Below are positions 301-53,671 of a stretch of DNA of 64,000 bases, in pieces. The stretch comes from Treponema socranskii subsp. paredis ATCC 35535. GTDB taxonomy: Bacteria > Spirochaetota > Spirochaetia > Treponematales > Treponemataceae. Made by a program: the position numbers and the translations under genes. Each line of letters starts with the position of its first letter. Position 1 is the stretch's first letter. The stretch covers positions 469,092-533,091 of the forward strand of contig KE332515.1 in assembly GCA_000413015.1 (NCBI GenBank), in the 5' to 3' direction. The notes under the pieces were generated by a model. That model did not search any database and was not told where the DNA came from. It worked only from the letters and a program-made list of their open reading frames with translations.

Positions 301-336
301 TTTTTATATCCAAACAAGCAGACCTCCGGCCTGTCC

Positions 337-402
337 GCCTATAACATTTGCTTGTACCGCACGCGGCTTGTCCGCGTATCGGCTTTGAACCTTTGTTATC
401 GC
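337..402 (-). other. attC site 1 of an integron-type cassette array
   Basis: This 66-bp imperfect palindrome lies just beyond the 3' end of the gene at 477-983. Read on the minus strand it begins with GCGATAAC and ends with GTTATAGGC, matching the inverted and direct core boxes (R'' and R') of attC. The centre is CCGATACGCGG, a short loop ACAAG, then CCGCGTGCGG. The arms between core boxes and centre pair only partly, as expected for the L boxes with extrahelical bases. The central CTTG/CAAG loop is shared with the site at 1018-1085. Treponema denticola is known to carry a chromosomal integron with sites of this kind. Confidence 0.65.
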
Positions 403-5139: not shown

Positions 5140-5958
5140 ATGGACGATCACCGTATATATTCGTATTTTCCGGGATGTACGCTTCGGAACAAAGCGCTCG
5201 ATTTGGATCGCTATGCCCGTTCCTCGGCCGAAGCGCTCGGGTTTACGCTCGAAGAGATTCCCGATTGGCAATGCTGCGGCGGAACCTACCCGCTTGCAAA
5301 AGACGAAATCGCGACGAAGCTTTCATCGGTGCGCGCGCTTGCAGCCGCTCGGGATGCGAAGCGGGAACTCGTTACGATATGCTCGGCGTGTCACAACGTC
5401 ATAAAGCAGGTAAACGACGATATGAGGCGGGACGACAACGTCATCGTAAAAGTCAACAACTATTTTAAAAATGACGGCATCTCCTATCACGGGGAGACGA
5501 AGGTACTGCATTACCTCGAAGTGCTTCGCGACGCAGTCGGCTGGAAAAACGTCAAAGCGAAAGTGACGAAGCCGCTTGAGGGCAAAAAAATCGGAGCGTA
5601 CTACGGCTGTCTCCTGCTGCGGCCGGGACGCGTCATGAAGATGGACGATCCGGAAAATCCGAGCATCCTCGAAGATTTTATATCGGCGATCGGTGCGACA
5701 CCTGTGCGCTATTCGCTTCGGAACGAGTGCTGCGGCGCGTATACGATGTTCGACGGCGGAGACATTCCCGAAAAGCGATGCAAAAAAATTTTGGATAATG
5801 CCGAATCGCAGGGAGCCGAGCTGCTCGTCACAGCCTGCCCGCTCTGCCGTTATAATCTCGTAAAACACCGGAGCGCCGAAAACGCCCCTGTGTTGTATTT
5901 TACCGAACTGCTCGCCGAAGCTCTCGGCGTCAAGGAGCAATGCCGTGCTGCAGTCTGA
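5140..5958 (+). CDS. hdrB: HdrB-like subunit with two CCG domains
   Basis: The product has 272 residues and is a soluble homologue of heterodisulfide reductase subunit B. Two complete cysteine-rich CCG domains are visible: Cys13, Cys45-Cys46, Cys81, Cys84, and Cys157, Cys197-Cys198, Cys233, Cys236. In methanogen HdrB these hold two non-cubane 4Fe-4S clusters that reduce a disulfide. The start at 5140 is chosen because GAGAGG lies upstream and the family begins near YSYFPGC; an in-frame ATG at 5068 would add 24 atypical residues. It overlaps hdrC by 14 nt. Treponemes are not known to make CoM/CoB, so the natural acceptor is open. The downstream flavoprotein points to fumarate. Confidence 0.88.
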   Translation: MDDHRIYSYFPGCTLRNKALDLDRYARSSAEALGFTLEEIPDWQCCGGTYPLAKDEIATKLSSVRALAAARDAKRELVTICSACHNVIKQVNDDMRRDDNVIVKVNNYFKNDGISYHGETKVLHYLEVLRDAVGWKNVKAKVTKPLEGKKIGAYYGCLLLRPGRVMKMDDPENPSILEDFISAIGATPVRYSLRNECCGAYTMFDGGDIPEKRCKKILDNAESQGAELLVTACPLCRYNLVKHRSAENAPVLYFTELLAEALGVKEQCRAAV

Positions 5959-6340
5959 ACTCAATAAGATCCGCGATGAAATACTTTCGATCAGCGGAGT
6001 AAACGTGCGCAAGTGCATGCAGTGCGGAAAGTGTTCGGGTACTTGCCCGTCCTACGACGATATGGAATATCATCCACACGAATTCGTGCACATGGTCGAA
6101 ACCGGCGATATCGAAGCGCTTTTGAAAACGGAATCGACGTACCGCTGTCTGTCGTGTTTTGCGTGCATGGAACGCTGCCCGCGCCAAGTCGAACCTGCGA
6201 AGATCGTGGAAGCGGTGCGCACGGTCGTCGAACGAAAGCGGGGTGCGGAACACCTCGCTGCGGAAAAAGTGCCGCTTTATATCGACGGCGATATGCCGCA
6301 ACAGGCGATCGTCAGCGCATTCAGAAAGTATAGGAAGTGA
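5945..6340 (+). CDS. hdrC: HdrC-like 4Fe-4S subunit
   Basis: The product has 131 residues. It carries two classical 4Fe-4S motifs, CxxCxxCxxxC at Cys24-Cys34 and Cys68-Cys78, each followed by Pro. This matches HdrC, which relays electrons between HdrA and the CCG subunit. The start is GTG at 5945, with AAGGAG at 5932-5937; the gene begins inside the end of hdrB, so the two are translationally coupled. The length is shorter than many HdrC proteins because the C-terminus stops soon after the second cluster. Confidence 0.88.
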   Translation: MLQSELNKIRDEILSISGVNVRKCMQCGKCSGTCPSYDDMEYHPHEFVHMVETGDIEALLKTESTYRCLSCFACMERCPRQVEPAKIVEAVRTVVERKRGAEHLAAEKVPLYIDGDMPQQAIVSAFRKYRK

Positions 6341-6342
6341 GT

Positions 6343-8340
6343 ATGCGGAAAATCGGAGTTTTTGTGTGCCACTGCGGCACGAATATAGCGGGCACGGTCG
6401 ATGTCAAAGCCGTCGCGGACGCGCTCGGAAAAGAAGCGGGCGTCGTCTTTTCGACGGACTACACCTATATGTGCTCTCAGACGGGTCAGGATCTCATAGC
6501 CGACACGATAAAAGAACATGAGCTCGGCGGAGTCGTCGTGTGTTCCTGCTCGCCTCGTATGCATGAAGCGACATTCCGAAAGTGTGCGGAAAAAGCGGGC
6601 ATCAATCCCTATCTTCTCGAAGTCGCAAATATTCGCGAACAGGATTCGTGGATATGTAAAGACATGCCGACGGCGACGGCAAAGGCGATTTCGCTCGGAA
6701 AAGCGGCTATCGCAAAAGTGCTGTTAAATGAACCGCTCACTGCAGGCGAAACGCCGGTCACCAAGCGCGCTCTCGTCATCGGCGGAGGCATCGCGGGCAT
6801 CCAGACGGCGATCGATATCGCCGACGCGGGTTTTCCGGTAGATATCGTCGAAGCGAAGCCGACGATCGGCGGCAAAATGGCGCAGCTCGACAAAACCTTT
6901 CCGACACTCGACTGTGCGGCCTGTATCCTCACGCCGCGCATGGTCGAATGCGGACAAAATGAAAATATCAGAATCCTCTCGTACAGCGAAGTGACGGATA
7001 TCAAAGGATTCGTCGGAAACTTTACCGTGACGATAAAGCGCAAAGCGCGCTACGTCGACGAAACGAAATGTACGGGCTGCGGCGAATGCGTGCAAAAGTG
7101 TCCGCAAAAAAAAGTGCCGAACGAATTCAATATGAATCTCGACAAGCGCTCCGCAATCTATATTCCCTTTGCGCAAGCCGTTCCGAAAATCGCGACAATC
7201 GATGCCGCACACTGCATGAAGCTCACGTCGGGAAAATGCGGCGTCTGTTCGATGGTGTGTCAGGCGAAGGCGATCGACTACGGTGCGAAAGATACGTTCA
7301 TCGAAGAAAAATACGGAGCCATCGTCGCCGCAACCGGCTACAATCCGATCGACTTGTCGAAGTTCGACGAGTTCGCGTATTCGCAAAGCAAAGACGTCGT
7401 ATCGTCCCTCGAATTCGAACGCCTTATGAATGCGGCAGGCCCTACCGGCGGTACCCTGCTCCGCCCTTCCGACGGCAAGCATCCCAAAACGATCGTATTT
7501 GTCCAATGCGTCGGAAGCCGCTGTTCGGCGGATGCGGAAAAAGGTCATGAATACTGTTCGAAAATCTGCTGTATGTACACGGCAAAGCACGCGATCCTCA
7601 CGAGAGACCACTACCCCGATACGGAGTGCTACGTATTTTATATCGACGTGCGCACACCGGGAAAAAACTTCGACGAATTTTACCGGAGGGCGGTCGAACA
7701 GTACGGCGTACACTATATCAAGGGTATGGTCGGAAAAGTGTCCGTCGAAGAAGACGGCACGCTCGACGTGCAAGGCTCGGATCTGCTCATGGATAAGCAA
7801 GTACACATCAAAGCCGACATGGTCGTGCTTGCCGCTTCCATCGAAGCGGATAAGTCCGCGCGCTCATTGGCGACGATGCTCACCGCGAGTATGGACACGA
7901 ACGACTTTTTTACCGAAGCGCATCCGAAGCTCCGCCCCGTCGAAAGCCCGACTGCGGGCGTCTATCTTTCAGGCTGCGCGCAGGGACCGAAGGATATTCC
8001 CGAAACGGTTTCGCAGGCAAGCGCGGCGGCAAGTAAAGTCATCGGCCTCCTCGTAAAGGATAAACTGAAAAACAATCCCTGCGTCGCCGAATCCGACGAA
8101 GCGATGTGCAACGGCTGCTCGCAGTGCGAAAACGTATGCCCCTACGGCGCGATCACGTATATCGATAAAGACTTCCGCGGCATAAACCGCACGACGGTAA
8201 CACGCCGAGTCGCGCAGGTAAACCCCGCCGTCTGTCAAGGCTGCGGCGCGTGTACGGTCGCCTGTCCCTCGGGAGCGATGGATCTCAAAGGATTTACGAA
8301 TAAAGAAATCATGGCGGAGGTCGATGCTTTATGTCTGTAA
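6343..8340 (+). CDS. hdrA: HdrA-like FAD/iron-sulfur subunit
   Basis: The product has 665 residues and is the flavin-containing core of Hdr complexes; in methanogens its FAD is the site of electron bifurcation. It starts IGVFVCHCGTNIAGTVD as typical HdrA does. It has a Rossmann FAD motif GGGIAG at 147-152, the CAAC motif near 191-194, a 4Fe-4S motif at Cys243-Cys254 and another Cys set near 288-303. Two C-terminal ferredoxin motifs (CNGCSQCENVCP and CQGCGACTVACP) complete it. ATG at 6343 is preferred to an in-frame GTG at 6337 because TAGGAAG then has normal spacing. It follows hdrC by 2 nt and overlaps the next gene by 10 nt. Confidence 0.92.
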   Translation: MRKIGVFVCHCGTNIAGTVDVKAVADALGKEAGVVFSTDYTYMCSQTGQDLIADTIKEHELGGVVVCSCSPRMHEATFRKCAEKAGINPYLLEVANIREQDSWICKDMPTATAKAISLGKAAIAKVLLNEPLTAGETPVTKRALVIGGGIAGIQTAIDIADAGFPVDIVEAKPTIGGKMAQLDKTFPTLDCAACILTPRMVECGQNENIRILSYSEVTDIKGFVGNFTVTIKRKARYVDETKCTGCGECVQKCPQKKVPNEFNMNLDKRSAIYIPFAQAVPKIATIDAAHCMKLTSGKCGVCSMVCQAKAIDYGAKDTFIEEKYGAIVAATGYNPIDLSKFDEFAYSQSKDVVSSLEFERLMNAAGPTGGTLLRPSDGKHPKTIVFVQCVGSRCSADAEKGHEYCSKICCMYTAKHAILTRDHYPDTECYVFYIDVRTPGKNFDEFYRRAVEQYGVHYIKGMVGKVSVEEDGTLDVQGSDLLMDKQVHIKADMVVLAASIEADKSARSLATMLTASMDTNDFFTEAHPKLRPVESPTAGVYLSGCAQGPKDIPETVSQASAAASKVIGLLVKDKLKNNPCVAESDEAMCNGCSQCENVCPYGAITYIDKDFRGINRTTVTRRVAQVNPAVCQGCGACTVACPSGAMDLKGFTNKEIMAEVDALCL

Positions 8341-29969: not shown

Positions 29970-31916
29970 ATGAATACATTATTAAATTTCCATCCGTTTC
30001 ACGTTTCAACAAAGGCGAATATTTTCAAAAATCGATATGCGATATTTTTTATTGCAGCCCTTTTTTGCGCGCTGCCGCTCGCATCGGAGTCTCACATTTC
30101 CAATCAAAAGCACGAAGGAGAAATCAGAGCGGTTTCAGCTTCCTTCGACGGAAGCGCATTTTTTACGGCGGGAGACGACGGATTTTTAATAAAATGGACG
30201 GACGACGGACAGGGCGAACATTATCAAATTTCGGATATGAGCGTAAAACTCTGCGCCCTCTCCCCAGACGGCAAAACGATCGCCGCATACGAAACGGACG
30301 GAGGACTCGTAAACCGCGTGAGCTTGTGGGATTTCGATACGCTGCAGCGGAAATACGCACGGCGCTTTGCAGATGCGGTGACGTCTTTGTCGTTTTCGGC
30401 AAAGGGCACTTATGTCATCGTCGGAACGGCTTCCGTAGAAGGGGCGATTTTTTTACGCGCTTCCGACGGACGCGTCGCCGACGTTTTAAAAGATTCGACG
30501 GGAATCATTTCGTATGCTGTAACGAGCGCATCGGAAAAAACGCTGTGCACGTATTCGCCTGTCGGCTTTATTTCGTATTACAATATGACCGACGGAAAAC
30601 TGAAGCGTCGCTTGAACTGCGAAGCGAATCTTTCGGATATCGCATCCTTCGACGGCGATATGTTTTTTGCAGGCACCAAAAACGATACGGTGTACGCCGT
30701 GTCGGCACTTTCGGGAAAGACGGCCGCTTCCGTTTCCGCACGCGCTCCGGTACTCCTGACGAGTGCCGACGATAAAAACCTGTACTATATCGCAAGCACT
30801 GCATCCCGAACGTACTCGCTTTCGATGCTTGAAAATCGAGGAGACAAAACGTTTTCATCTCCCCTCATTTTGAAAAATTTCAAACCGCTTCCGAACGGAG
30901 AAGCGATCAGAGCGGGCGCAAAAGCGGGAGACGAAATCGCACTCGCCTCTTCGGGCGGCAACGTATTTCGAACGACGACTTTTCCCGATACGGCGCTCCT
31001 CTCTCTTTCCCCGCTCACCGACGATATCTACGAAAAAATTTCCGATGCGGCGAGCGCCGAAGACGGCTTTTATTTTTTGACGAGCGGCGCGCTCTATGCG
31101 TCATCTTACGATACCGGCACAGTCGATAAACGCGCATCGAATGACGCTCACACGAATATGAGCGTCTGCGAAGGGGGCGTCATCCTGTGGTCGCGAGGCA
31201 CGAAGCGGGCGCTCGAATATTTCGACTTTACTGAGAATAAAACGACACGGCTTTTTACGCCCGAAAGCGGCGTACAATCCGTCCGCGCCTTCGGAAATGT
31301 GATTTTGACAATGGAAAGCAATGCCGTCGTCCGCGCGTATTACAGGGACACGGGCAAAATTGAAGAGCTGTATGCGGGAGCGGGATTGCAGGATGCGCTC
31401 ATTTCAGGCGGCACGCTCTACGTCGCAAAGTCGTCCGCGACAAATCCTCCGTCCGCCCTTCTCAGCATCGATATGCGTACAAAAGAAATCGTACCGCTGA
31501 AAATCGCAGCCGACATCGTCTATGCGCTTTCGGCTTCCGACGGCGAATTGTACGGTATCGCCGTGCAGTCAGGCGGAGATGAAAAAACGACGAATCTTTT
31601 TTCGTATACACCCGCACTTTCGAAAACGACGATGCTTTTAAAACTCAACGACGAAGATACGGGCGCTTTTACCTACTTTTACGACGGACATATTTTGACG
31701 GATATCGGAAGCGAAAAAGTATATTCGTACGATCTTTCGCGAAAAAAAAGCAGATATTACGGACGCTCCGCATCGCTTCCGGTAAAAGCCGTGCAAAACG
31801 GAGAGCGCATCGCGGTGCTGAATCGAGACGGAAGCATTTCGTGGTACGATACGGAAAAGACCGAAGTGCTCGCCGATTGGTATTTGACAAAAGACGGAAC
31901 TTGGTACGAGTTTTAA
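29970..31916 (+). CDS. Exported WD40-like beta-propeller protein
   Basis: The product has 648 residues. A hydrophobic segment at about 25-40 (AIFFIAALFCALPLA) after a 24-residue basic lead suggests export or anchoring. The rest is a chain of four-stranded repeats of WD40/PQQ-like type, for example AVSASFDGSAFFTAGDDG and LCALSPDGKTIAAYETDG near the start, consistent with one or two propellers. AGGA lies upstream of the ATG, 9 bp after rseP, so it is the last gene of that operon. The function is unknown; it is probably a periplasmic scaffold. Confidence 0.75.
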   Translation: MNTLLNFHPFHVSTKANIFKNRYAIFFIAALFCALPLASESHISNQKHEGEIRAVSASFDGSAFFTAGDDGFLIKWTDDGQGEHYQISDMSVKLCALSPDGKTIAAYETDGGLVNRVSLWDFDTLQRKYARRFADAVTSLSFSAKGTYVIVGTASVEGAIFLRASDGRVADVLKDSTGIISYAVTSASEKTLCTYSPVGFISYYNMTDGKLKRRLNCEANLSDIASFDGDMFFAGTKNDTVYAVSALSGKTAASVSARAPVLLTSADDKNLYYIASTASRTYSLSMLENRGDKTFSSPLILKNFKPLPNGEAIRAGAKAGDEIALASSGGNVFRTTTFPDTALLSLSPLTDDIYEKISDAASAEDGFYFLTSGALYASSYDTGTVDKRASNDAHTNMSVCEGGVILWSRGTKRALEYFDFTENKTTRLFTPESGVQSVRAFGNVILTMESNAVVRAYYRDTGKIEELYAGAGLQDALISGGTLYVAKSSATNPPSALLSIDMRTKEIVPLKIAADIVYALSASDGELYGIAVQSGGDEKTTNLFSYTPALSKTTMLLKLNDEDTGAFTYFYDGHILTDIGSEKVYSYDLSRKKSRYYGRSASLPVKAVQNGERIAVLNRDGSISWYDTEKTEVLADWYLTKDGTWYEF

Positions 31917-32074: not shown

Positions 32075-32530
32075 ATGTGTACTGAATGCTACGCCGACGA
32101 AGACAGGGTAACGCCGCTTTTGAATCCGGAAGAATGTTTGAAAAACCACACGCAATACATCTGCGGAACGTGCGGACGGTGCATCTGCATCGACCGTACA
32201 AAAAACGGATTACAGCGCTGGAACTTTCCGTTTAAATCTGCGGCAATCGCAAAATTATATATACGCACGGCCGATTTCACAATGAAAAAAAGCTGCGGCG
32301 TATATGAAATAAAAAGCGCTTCGGGAAGAATTTTTTATAAAATATTTTCGGATGAAGCGGAATTGAAAACCTATTTGCAAAACAACAAAGATAAAACGTG
32401 CAGCGGAAAAAAGCCGCTTTTTTCTCAAAGCCGCTACCGCGAATTTCCGAACACGCAAGTGCGGCGCTTGAGCGATGATGAAGCGTTACTCTATATGAGC
32501 GAACGCAAAACGCGGCAAAGCCGGCGCTGA
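32075..32530 (+). CDS. Small Cys-rich cytosolic protein of unknown function
   Basis: The product has 151 residues. The N-terminus has MCTECYADE and CGTCGRCIC, paired cysteines likely to bind zinc or a cluster. The middle is a mixed alpha/beta domain with MKKSCGVYEIKSASGRIFYK, and the C-terminus is basic (LSDDEALLYMSERKTRQSRR). A second copy of its last 113 bp, about nine substitutions away, lies at 33313-33425 beyond the MNT-HEPN pair. Substitutions between the two keep the frame and the stop, so both derive from working versions of this gene. Confidence 0.7.
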   Translation: MCTECYADEDRVTPLLNPEECLKNHTQYICGTCGRCICIDRTKNGLQRWNFPFKSAAIAKLYIRTADFTMKKSCGVYEIKSASGRIFYKIFSDEAELKTYLQNNKDKTCSGKKPLFSQSRYREFPNTQVRRLSDDEALLYMSERKTRQSRR

Positions 32531-32538
32531 AACCGTTG
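32426..32538 (+). repeat. 113-bp direct repeat, copy 1 (3' end of the CxxC-protein gene)
   Basis: From CAAAGCCGCTACCGCG to CCGTTG. Compared by eye with copy 2 it has the same length, no gaps and about nine mismatches. The copies bracket the MNT-HEPN pair. Confidence 0.9.
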
Positions 32539-32564
32539 TCGGCAGTCCGTTTTCGTGGTATCAT
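32536..32564 (+). promoter_or_regulatory. Leaderless promoter of the MNT-HEPN pair
   Basis: TTGTCG (32536-32541), 17 bp, TATCAT (32559-32564), then 6 nt to ATG 32571. It starts where the repeat ends. Confidence 0.55.
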
Positions 32565-32570
32565 AAAGCG

Positions 32571-32891
32571 ATGATTACGGAAGAGATTAAACGGATAACG
32601 GAAAAAATCAAAGAAGCCCTCGATCCCGAGCGCATCTATCTTTTCGGTTCGTATGCGCGCAACGAAGAAACCGAAAAGAGCGATTATGATTTTTATGTCG
32701 TTGTCGATGAGGAAAAAGGGAATCCTTTGCTTTTGTGTGATAAAGCTTATTCGGCAATTTTCGATATACAAGAAAAACCGTGCGATGTTATCGTAAATCA
32801 TAAGTCGAAATTCGATATACGAAAATATCGTCCGACACTCGAAAAAACAGTTGCAAATGAAGGTGTATTGCTTTATGAAAAACGATCTTAA
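32571..32891 (+). CDS. mntA: MNT-type nucleotidyltransferase antitoxin (MntA-like)
   Basis: The product has 106 residues and is a minimal nucleotidyltransferase. The catalytic motif is complete: GSYAR (about residues 25-29), then SDYDFYVVV (about 36-44), with a third acid in PCDVIV. MntA enzymes silence the partner HEPN ribonuclease by AMP transfer. It overlaps the HEPN gene by 17 nt. The pair sits between duplicated copies of a gene end, suggesting arrival as a small mobile or recombined unit. The start codon is 6 nt past the -10 hexamer, with no ribosome-binding site. Confidence 0.85.
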   Translation: MITEEIKRITEKIKEALDPERIYLFGSYARNEETEKSDYDFYVVVDEEKGNPLLLCDKAYSAIFDIQEKPCDVIVNHKSKFDIRKYRPTLEKTVANEGVLLYEKRS

Positions 32892-33270
32892 ACAAGACGT
32901 AGCGGAATGGCTTCGTATTGTCGAAATGGACAGGACAACCGCTTATCACCTTTTTAAAACCATGCATCCCAAACCTTTGGAAATCATCTGCTTTCACTGT
33001 CAGCAGGCTGCCGAAAAAGCAATTAAGGCTTTATTTATCTTAAACGAAATTGAAATTATCAAAATACACGATCTGGGAATGCTTATTAAAACGATACAAC
33101 CGAAAACAGCGTTTCCCGAAACAGTGAAACTTTCTGCTATCAGTTTAACAAAATTTGCCGCGACTTTTCGATACCCTGACTATCCTGATATCGATGAAGA
33201 GCTTACAAAAAAGGCGCTCGCCGATATGGATGTCGTAGTCGATTGGTGCAAAGAACAAATCGAAGCTTAA
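32875..33270 (+). CDS. hepT: HEPN-domain protein (HepT-like toxin)
   Basis: The product has 131 residues, all helical. It has the HEPN family core CFHCQQAAEKAIKAL (about 36-50), HDLGML (about 63-68) and FRYPDYPD (about 97-104). In HEPN toxins the R-x4-6-H motif cuts RNA; here one spaced RTTAYH occurs near residue 22, so the catalytic assignment is not certain. The start at 32875 is chosen because the family begins there and it overlaps the partner. A hairpin followed by T's lies directly after the stop. It could act in plasmid/phage defence or as an addiction module. Confidence 0.8.
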   Translation: MKNDLKQDVAEWLRIVEMDRTTAYHLFKTMHPKPLEIICFHCQQAAEKAIKALFILNEIEIIKIHDLGMLIKTIQPKTAFPETVKLSAISLTKFAATFRYPDYPDIDEELTKKALADMDVVVDWCKEQIEA

Positions 33271-33293
33271 AATACGCACTGCTGCGGTATTTT
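33271..33293 (+). terminator. Possible terminator after hepT
   Basis: AATACGCA pairs with TGCGGTATT (one bulge) across a 4-nt loop and is followed by T's. It starts 1 nt after the hepT stop. Confidence 0.4.
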
Positions 33294-33312
33294 CAAAAAT
33301 TGATATTCTCTG

Positions 33313-33425
33313 CAAAGCCGCTATCGCGAATTTCCGAACACGCAAGTGCGGCGCTTGAGCGAAGATGAAGCGTTACGCTATATGGACGAACGTAAAACGC
33401 GGCAAAGCAAGCGCTGATACCGTTG
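33313..33425 (+). pseudogene. Detached second copy of the CxxC-protein gene's 3' end
   Basis: This is direct repeat copy 2. It reads in frame as the C-terminus of the 32075 gene, ending LSEDEALRYMDERKTRQSKR and a TGA at 33415-33417, but has no start or upstream part. Compared with copy 1 there are about nine substitutions in 113 bp, several synonymous or conservative. It is therefore more like a sister allele than a fresh duplication. Confidence 0.85.
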
Positions 33426-33440
33426 CCGCCGCTTGCATTT

Positions 33441-34913
33441 TCAAATTCCCGCACCGCGCGCAAGGGCTTCTTTATAGACGGCGACGTACTGCTCCGCCGA
33501 TTTTTTCCAGCTGAAATCTTTTTTCATACCGCGCTTTCGCATTTCGGCGATGTGCTCTTTTTTGTTATAATACGCGTAAACCGCCCAGCCGCAAGTGTCG
33601 AATACGGCGGAAGGCGTCAAGTTGTCGAACATAAAGCCCGTACCTTCCCCCGTCTTTTCGTCGTACTGTTCGACCGTATCGGCGAGTCCTCCCGTACGGC
33701 GCACGATGGGAAGCGTGCCGTACAAAAGCGAATACATTTGATTCAATCCGCACGGCTCGTATTTTGACGGCATCAAAAAGAAATCGCTGCCCGCTTCGAT
33801 GAGATGACTTAAGCTTTCATCGTAGCCGATATATGCGCGCATATTCGGAAGCTTCGACTGAAGCGCGAGTATTTCGTTTTCGCACCACTTTTCCCCGCTT
33901 CCGAGGACTGCGACCTGCACGTCGATTTCGCTGCACAGGCGGTACATGCAGCCGTAAGTCGGTGCAAAAAGTTCGGCGATACCCTTTTGATCGGCAAGAC
34001 GCGTTACGATTCCGATAACGGGAACGGCATCGTCTTCGGAAAGCTTCATACGTTTTTGCAGTTCGCGTTTGCATACCGCTTTTTTTTCAATCGATGTTTC
34101 GTCGTAGTTTACGGGAATGAGCGTATCCGTTTTCGGATTCCACACATCTTCATCGATTCCGTTTAGGATGCCGCGGACGACGTCGCGCCTTACGCGCAAA
34201 AGCCCGTCCATACCGAAGCCGCCTTCGGCAGTTTGGATTTCTTTCGCATAAGTCGGAGACACCGTCGTGATCATATCGGCGGAAGATATGCCGCCCTGTA
34301 AAAAATTGATACCGCCGTTATGTTCAAGTCCCGCGCCGTAATACAATCCCCAATGAATGCCGAGAGAAGGAAACCAATCTTTTGCGTATTGTCCCTGATA
34401 GCCTAAATTGTGAATCGTCAAAACGCTCGCCGTCTTTGCAAAGAGGTCGTTTCGGATGACGTGCTTTAAAATGATCGGAGCGAGGGACGCCGACCAATCG
34501 TGCGCGTGGACGATATCGGGATACCATCCGAGCTTTCGGCACAGCTGGAAAGCGCCGTGACACAAAAGCGAAAAGCGGTACGGATTGTCGTGAAAATCGG
34601 TTTCAGACTTTGTACCGTACACACCGTCGCGTCCGAACGCGCCTTCGTGGTCGAGAAAATAAACGCCGACCTTTGACGAAGGCAGCACGCTTTCATAAAC
34701 GCCGACCCACGATTCAGAAGTTCCCGCAGCGACGGCAAGAGGACCGGGGATCGCCTGTAACTTTTTACGGTCGATTTTATAATAGCGCGGCATGACGATT
34801 TTTACATCGTGTCCGATCTTTGAAAGAGACAGCGCCAAAGCGGACACCATATCGGCAAGCCCGCCCGTCTTTGCAAAGGGTACCGCTTCGGCCGTCACCA
34901 TAAGGATTTTCAT
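33441..34913 (-). CDS. glgA: Glycogen synthase (ADP-glucose type)
   Basis: The product has 490 residues and is a GT5 family glucosyltransferase extending glycogen from ADP-glucose. KTGGLADMVSAL (about residues 15-26) binds the nucleotide sugar, GYQGQYAKDW is in the middle, and the C-terminal donor-site loop PSKYEPCGLNQMY followed by GTLPIVRRTGGLADTV is near 375-405. The start at 34913 is chosen for GGAGG upstream. It lies 37 bp after the aminotransferase gene on the same strand, so the two may be cotranscribed. Confidence 0.95.
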   Translation of the reverse strand: MKILMVTAEAVPFAKTGGLADMVSALALSLSKIGHDVKIVMPRYYKIDRKKLQAIPGPLAVAAGTSESWVGVYESVLPSSKVGVYFLDHEGAFGRDGVYGTKSETDFHDNPYRFSLLCHGAFQLCRKLGWYPDIVHAHDWSASLAPIILKHVIRNDLFAKTASVLTIHNLGYQGQYAKDWFPSLGIHWGLYYGAGLEHNGGINFLQGGISSADMITTVSPTYAKEIQTAEGGFGMDGLLRVRRDVVRGILNGIDEDVWNPKTDTLIPVNYDETSIEKKAVCKRELQKRMKLSEDDAVPVIGIVTRLADQKGIAELFAPTYGCMYRLCSEIDVQVAVLGSGEKWCENEILALQSKLPNMRAYIGYDESLSHLIEAGSDFFLMPSKYEPCGLNQMYSLLYGTLPIVRRTGGLADTVEQYDEKTGEGTGFMFDNLTPSAVFDTCGWAVYAYYNKKEHIAEMRKRGMKKDFSWKKSAEQYVAVYKEALARGAGI

Positions 34914-53044: not shown

Positions 53045-53671
53045 ATGCATATAAAAAAAATTACTGCCGTGCTCGCCGCGGCAATCTGTACCGCTTTGCT
53101 TTACGCCGCTTCCCCCGAACCGTACAATTACTACGAATCCGCTCCCGGTTATACCGAGCCCTTCGATTCGAATGACGATGCATCTACTTTCGACCGAAAT
53201 ATTCCGATCGAAAGAGAATATCAAGGAAACGATCCCGTCGAAGGTTATTGGATTGCGACAAACCAGCGCACGGGAGAAGCGCTGTGCGGCTGGCACATGT
53301 TCGTAAAAGACGGCATATTGTACGGTGTTATCCTCTCGGCAAAGGATGCAACGAATGAAAGCATCGCTTTCCGAGCAAAAGGCCCCTATCCCGATTTTCC
53401 CGAAAAAGGCAAACTCGACAAAAAACCGATGTTCGGTCCGACGTGGATTTACGGTCTTAAAAATGCGGGAACGGGTCGATGGAAGAGAGGCTATATCATA
53501 AATCCCGACGACGGAAATTGTTTTCGCTGCAAAATTACGTTTTGTAAAACGGACGGCAAACGGTATAAACGCGATTATATAAAAATGTGCGGCTCGCTTC
53601 GAGGCATCGGTATCGGCATAACACAGCTGTGGCCGGCAGCGACAAAGGCTGAAGCATCGGGTATACGGTAA
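53045..53671 (+). CDS. Exported DUF2147-like protein
   Basis: The product has 208 residues with a signal peptide (KKITAVLAAAICTALLYAA). After a Tyr/Asp-rich linker the DUF2147 layout is recognisable: GYWIATNQRTGEALCGWHMF, DGILYGVILSA, IYGLKNAGTGRWKRGYIINP, DDGNCFRCKI and CGSLRGIGIGITQLW. These proteins are secreted and of unknown function. AGGGGA precedes ATG 53045, 27 bp after gmhA. Confidence 0.75.
   Translation: MHIKKITAVLAAAICTALLYAASPEPYNYYESAPGYTEPFDSNDDASTFDRNIPIEREYQGNDPVEGYWIATNQRTGEALCGWHMFVKDGILYGVILSAKDATNESIAFRAKGPYPDFPEKGKLDKKPMFGPTWIYGLKNAGTGRWKRGYIINPDDGNCFRCKITFCKTDGKRYKRDYIKMCGSLRGIGIGITQLWPAATKAEASGIR

Follow-up and report, generated by a model that had tools for sequence, protein, structure and literature searches.

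Homology-facilitated illegitimate recombination (de Vries and Wackernagel 2002 and Prudhomme 2002, as cited in PMC3240628) and the duplication of gene ends by a single crossover are the closest described counterparts of the arrangement analysed here, with which they share one homologous anchor, one illegitimate joint that often carries microhomology, and a partial duplication of the anchor gene. Under selection, E. coli lacZ recombinants were mostly partial gene duplications of 109-950 bp formed when a re-closed fragment integrated by one crossover, and the illegitimate joints of competent species usually display 3-10 bp of microhomology (PMC3240628). A similar recombination has been proposed for the T6SS effector-immunity modules of Vibrio cholerae, in which the 3' end of the native effector is displaced downstream as a remnant (PMC5361080). 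The Treponema locus resembles these modules in that an apparently incoming module is anchored on a conserved part of a gene; in V. cholerae, however, the gene end belongs to the toxin itself and arrays accumulate, whereas in Treponema an unrelated neighbour gene anchors a cargo of two genes. With respect to the laboratory recombinants, the Treponema cases are natural, with parental forms and empty sites in sister genomes, and the joint falls in a REP-like palindrome. We consider it probable that an MNT-HEPN gene pair was acquired at this locus by one homologous crossover at the end of a CxxC-protein gene and one illegitimate joint, with no integrase involved.

The locus lies in a window of 64,000 nucleotides (the whole stretch of DNA that was analysed, to which positions refer unless another contig or locus is named) from a 2.74-Mb genome of the Treponema socranskii group. 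The ancestral locus is bounded on the left by a WD40-like gene (29970..31916, + strand), which is convergent with glgA in many congeners, and on the right by glgA itself (33441..34913, - strand); the gap between these convergent genes reads as a tolerant insertion spot. Within it, a CxxC-protein gene of 151 aa (32075..32530, + strand) ends in the first copy of a repeat (32426..32541, + strand) that is specific to this gene and comprises codons 118-151, the stop codon and 3' flank. The second copy (33313..33428, + strand) is a truncated, untranslated end of the same gene, followed by the glgA flank. Two copies of equal length with about nine mismatches, both reading as the C-terminus of the CxxC protein, had been noticed in an earlier, sequence-only reading; indeed, the 113 nt described there contain 9 mismatches, and the ungapped alignment extends to 116 nt at 91.4% identity. 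The 27-nt core of the repeat occurs twice in the window and not at all in shuffles, and no third copy of the gene-end repeat is present in the genome (two per genome). Copy 2 keeps the CxxC frame; since it has no start codon and is preceded by an in-frame TGA, it is a remnant and not a gene. The CxxC protein matched no Pfam or NCBIfam family, and its relatives (60-94%) occur in Treponemataceae, Streptococcus and Clostridia. Outside the T. socranskii group, these relatives stand in unrelated surroundings, with no MNT-HEPN pair beside them. CxxC-protein genes adjoin nucleotidyltransferase-like genes in Streptococcus sinensis (L043) and Eisenbergiella porci (L049) too, and the two kinds of protein may be linked in function.

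The presence of an MNT-HEPN pair between the two copies, as the sequence-only reading had it, is corroborated by Pfam matches for both proteins. The first gene encodes an MNT nucleotidyltransferase, a putative antitoxin (32571..32891, + strand; Polbeta/NTP_transf_2), in which the motif GSx10DxD is intact as GSYARNEETEKSDYD; the adjacent gene encodes a HEPN protein, a putative toxin (32875..33270, + strand; PF05168), whose ATG at 32875 overlaps the end of the MNT gene. The order of MNT upstream of HEPN, the overlapping genes and the GSx10DxD motif are shared with the type VII HEPN-MNT system MntA-HepT (PMC7641770, PMC11586414). In contrast to that system, MNT scores 44.7 bits with the MntA equivalog model NF047752, below its curated cut-off of 60, and HEPN matches PF05168 instead of the HepT-type combination of PF01934 with Rx4-6H. 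The conserved Rx4-6H is absent from the protein, which displays only an N-terminal RTTAYH, plus RYPDYPD. PF05168 represents the HEPN-T class, whose members often carry D in place of the usual H (PMC3710099). A sequence search gave no relative of solved structure for HEPN. Collectively, the two genes look like an MNT-HEPN pair and not a canonical MntA-HepT, and they would act as a toxin-antitoxin. A phage or plasmid carrier was rejected, as no CxxC or MNT relatives were found on viral contigs and only three MNT matches, all distant, on plasmids.

The same site was compared in four genomes of the T. socranskii group, namely the window genome, Treponema sp. Marseille-Q4130 (G088), T. socranskii ATCC 35536 (G086) and G059. 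The CxxC gene is followed by the pair in all four, with neither an empty site nor other cargo among them. The earlier reading had proposed a cargo-exchange hotspot and had named such a fixed arrangement as the outcome that would speak against it; a hotspot at the CxxC gene is not shown, because the pair is in all four relatives. An empty site made of a CxxC gene without the pair is lacking since the pair is present in the four genomes and the CxxC relatives elsewhere stand in unrelated surroundings. In many congeners, the WD40-like gene adjoins glgA with neither CxxC gene nor pair between them. The WD40-glgA gap holds other small genes, mntP-like and HAD-hydrolase-like (named by eye from their sequences), in two Treponema species (L141 of G162, 5284-5856; L142 of G158, 6077-7457). 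The changes that are seen among the relatives are replacement of alleles inside the pair and loss of copy 2. Both gene-end copies are present in G088, while a single deletion common to G086 and G059 takes away most of copy 2. In G059, part of MNT is replaced by a divergent allele, a foreign stretch that brings the gene to 21% divergence overall, and HEPN is deleted internally, so that the toxin is broken and the antitoxin kept.

The divergence of the locus is also uneven. Between any two of the window genome, G088 and G086, MNT differs by 0.9-1.3% (third positions 3-4%); the divergence is about 4-12% in dxr, rseP, the WD gene, glgA and the aminotransferase gene (third positions 9-23% where counted). 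In the CxxC gene, the 3' 102 nt differ by 7-13% and the first 351 nt by only 4-6%. In the four-gamete test, the six gene-end copies conflict at 32 of 55 informative site pairs; a minimum of three recombination points falls within 113 bp (Rm 3), and some variants are common to both copies of one genome; hence the two gene ends recombine with each other. An MNT core at about 1% between flanks at 4-12%, together with the mosaic gene-end copies, indicates that the segment has been exchanged, and the most likely reading of these sequences is that the pair moved between these species after their split. The description of the copies as alleles is upheld to the extent that they recombine; the further proposal that copy 2 is the newcomer fares worse, as analogy with the sister loci described below favours the reverse.

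The right-hand side of the pair displays a joint. The 51 bp 3' of HEPN (33271..33321, + strand) are a copy of a dispersed REP-like palindrome with the consensus TGCGGCATTTTCGAAAATTGATATTTTCTGCAATGCCGCA, whose hairpin has a z-score of -4.5, and at GCCGC (33317-33321) its right arm passes into the end of the CxxC gene. The right arm occurs 15 times in 1.69 Mb of the genome and is followed by the REP tail in 14 of these; the one arm that runs into CxxC sequence, via GCCGC, is that of this locus. At the joint, G059 still has the REP-type base (CAATGCCGC), and the left edge of copy 2, as far as GCCGC, is partly palindrome sequence. The junction between REP arm and CxxC sequence reads as a non-homologous, illegitimate joint with 5 bp of microhomology. 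The locus displays two marks of gene-end-anchored illegitimate insertion, foreign cargo framed by a partly duplicated anchor gene and a non-homologous joint with microhomology. The pair had been credited with its own promoter and terminator, and the case for them is weak. A weak promoter-like site with an extended -10, TGGTATCAT (32536..32564, + strand), precedes MNT and is not above chance in comparison with shuffles. The supposed terminator after HEPN is accounted for by the REP-like palindrome that forms the joint there, broken and too damaged to fold now.

The same anatomy is present at four loci in 1.69 Mb of the own genome, which was read in stretches, and three of the four have relatives with one copy and no cargo. 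In particular, one-copy empty sites occur at the macro-domain, trkH and flavoprotein loci; the CxxC locus carries the pair in all genomes compared. The suggestion that the 3' end of this gene may serve as an insertion site, with the incoming unit replacing the end, gains support from these three sister loci to the extent that the unit replaced or split a gene end on entry; a cargo-exchange hotspot at the CxxC gene gains none. At the first sister locus, a DUF523 gene and a membrane-protein gene separate two copies of 100 bp of the end of a macro-domain gene (C1:51715-51814 and 53079-53178, 96% identity). This site is empty in G059 and G086, and in G088 a diverged macro allele is followed by remains of the same cargo; the two copies are closer to each other than to any relative, so that an imported allele is not visible there. 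At the second, 64 bp of the 3' end of what we take, from its protein sequence, to be trkH (C1:1399488-1399551 and 1401531-1401594) are copied beyond a gene for 555 aa. In G086 and G059 the site is empty, and its single copy agrees in the left flank with the own copy A. In G088 the cargo adjoins trkH, again with a single copy, which agrees in the left flank with the own copy B. The own arrangement, on these alignments, is a chimera of the two, and both parental forms survive in sister genomes. At the third, a 77-bp repeat made of a flavoprotein gene end and its terminator frames cargo in the own genome; the cargo is present in G086, and G059 and G088 have an empty site with a single copy. At the trkH and flavoprotein loci, the native flank is found with the copy that lies beyond the cargo. 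By analogy, it is copy 2 of the CxxC gene end that more probably represents the native end left stranded, and copy 1 would owe its end to the incoming DNA.

Besides the REP-like palindrome, several families of dispersed intergenic repeats, with dozens of partial copies per genome, are found in the window genome and its relatives. They lie beside the trkH and flavoprotein cargo and elsewhere too, so that a local repeat pair is not always a gene-end scar. Other candidates from the scan were set aside: several intergenic repeats, among them those near 1313 kb and 1321 kb, have the appearance of dispersed elements, and the genes of the pair at 394 kb, like the flagellar genes at 802 kb, seem to be paralogues.

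A similar situation is found at MNT loci of other Treponema. In G154, an MNT-bearing insert lies between dnaX and ybaB, and a 42-bp copy of the DnaX tail is fused in frame to MNT, whose ORF (L155, 6673-7014 of the reverse-complemented locus) ends in the copied tail NDESSEDDD; in its close relative G112, dnaX directly adjoins ybaB with no insert. The MNT-DnaX tail would be a natural fusion produced by the joint, and no HEPN match is present downstream of this MNT. The MNT locus is framed by 184 bp of the start of a GH31-like gene in G194 and by 75 bp of the start of a MATE-like gene in G003. Of 20 other MNT loci in Treponema, 4 are spanned by direct repeats, compared with about 1% of background positions (p ~1e-4; 1e-3 with the background doubled), a count made post hoc, with the pattern already noticed, and in which one of the four cases (G178) is doubtful. 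In G175 (L075, 5063-6546), a restriction-modification type gene and a long CxxC-like gene enclose a truncated MNT-HEPN, and a 37-bp copy of the CxxC-like gene end is found downstream; in G097 (L074, 5613-5617), the restriction-modification type gene and the long CxxC-like gene are adjacent.

A single crossover with an illegitimate joint would account for the duplicated gene end and the divergence of its alleles, for the one-copy empty sites, and for insertion at varied target genes with no integrase. The anatomy, the joint, the mosaicism and the exchange of the MNT core are seen in the sequences, as are empty sites and parental forms at the sister loci; the crossover at the CxxC locus and the form of the donor are inferred as follows. 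A donor fragment with the form CxxC gene end-MNT-HEPN-REP-like palindrome would have undergone a RecA-type crossover inside the CxxC gene end on one side, and on the other the palindrome arm would have been joined illegitimately to the CxxC gene at GCCGC. This joint may have been formed in the recipient gene, as in homology-facilitated illegitimate recombination, or when the fragment circularised ahead of a single crossover; by either route the product would be the gene, the cargo and a truncated gene end. Later, the two ends would have kept recombining, alleles of the pair would have been swapped between species, and copy 2 or HEPN would have decayed in some lineages. Counting against this reading, recipient DNA is usually deleted and not duplicated in classical homology-facilitated illegitimate recombination (PMC3240628), the four genomes hold no CxxC site without the pair, and the donor form CxxC-MNT-HEPN was not found elsewhere. 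The DNA may have entered by transformation, conjugation or another route. ComEC and DprA are encoded in all four genomes, and since controls such as E. coli are also positive, their presence is uninformative on competence.

Microhomology at the right joint, as well as short duplications at unrelated genes, would also result from template switching within one cell, in which replication leaves the CxxC end, copies MNT-HEPN elsewhere and returns slightly upstream at GCCGC, thereby duplicating the gene end. We regard this as rather unlikely, as a second copy of the pair was not found in the searched part of the genome and trkH and the cargo already adjoin in G088, which indicates that the cargo travelled with its neighbour gene. 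The recombination between the copies and the decay of copy 2 in G086 and G059 would also fit a tandem duplication of CxxC-MNT-HEPN followed by loss of the second pair and of most of the second gene; this is very unlikely, for it needs two events and leaves unexplained both the palindrome arm that runs into the gene at GCCGC and the one-copy empty sites at the sister loci.

Duplication of gene ends is typical of integrase islands, and the genome does contain a chromosomal integron (G000:C1:193-214 kb; L082, L083), with an integrase at 213678-214598 (484 bits) and an attC-like repeat array at about 193-209 kb of C1, some 255 kb from the CxxC locus. A site-specific element with gene ends for its attachment sites, either an integrase island or an integron cassette, is nevertheless highly improbable, as the unit consists of MNT and HEPN only, with no integrase within it, and a different gene end is found at every insertion. 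Like the integron gene cassettes of Treponema, the pair is made of small genes between repeats; in contrast to them, its repeat is specific to one gene and is not attC. Indeed, attC sites have RYYYAAC/GTTRRRY arms and fold as a hairpin, and the repeat differs in sequence from the attC sites of the same genome and has fold z-scores near 0, no better than shuffles. An integron cassette was rejected on these differences from the clear attC sites of the genome. A regular-expression scan for attC gave no matches even in the true array, so that it is too strict and carries no weight. Far from the integron, an attC-like repeat pair, TGTCCGCCTA...GCACGCGGCTTGTCCGCG, lies at window positions 332-382, with its partner 1 kb to the left beyond the window; this pair and similar ones at C1:1031-1033 kb and 1531-1532 kb were read as scattered cassette remnants. 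Finally, a transposition-like process making target duplications of 40-180 bp would explain why empty sites have exactly one repeat copy, and is barely credible given that no terminal repeats or transposase are seen in the unit and that the cargo side of the trkH repeat matches the cargo-trkH junction of G088, which has no second copy.

On a more speculative level, the crossover at a gene end with an illegitimate joint might belong to a recurrent and perhaps assisted route in treponemes, for instance by REP-like palindromes and an associated nuclease, which would add single genes or toxin-antitoxin pairs beside gene ends, the left-over end then working as a store of recombining alleles and a landing pad for re-entry of cargo; we give this extension a small probability. 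The entry of small genes without integrases or transposases has so far mostly been guessed from presence and absence, and here its scars are legible. What was a laboratory by-product of recombination may thus become a testable natural route of gene acquisition in oral spirochaetes, for which a truncated copy of a gene end at the far side of a small cargo provides the signature to search for.
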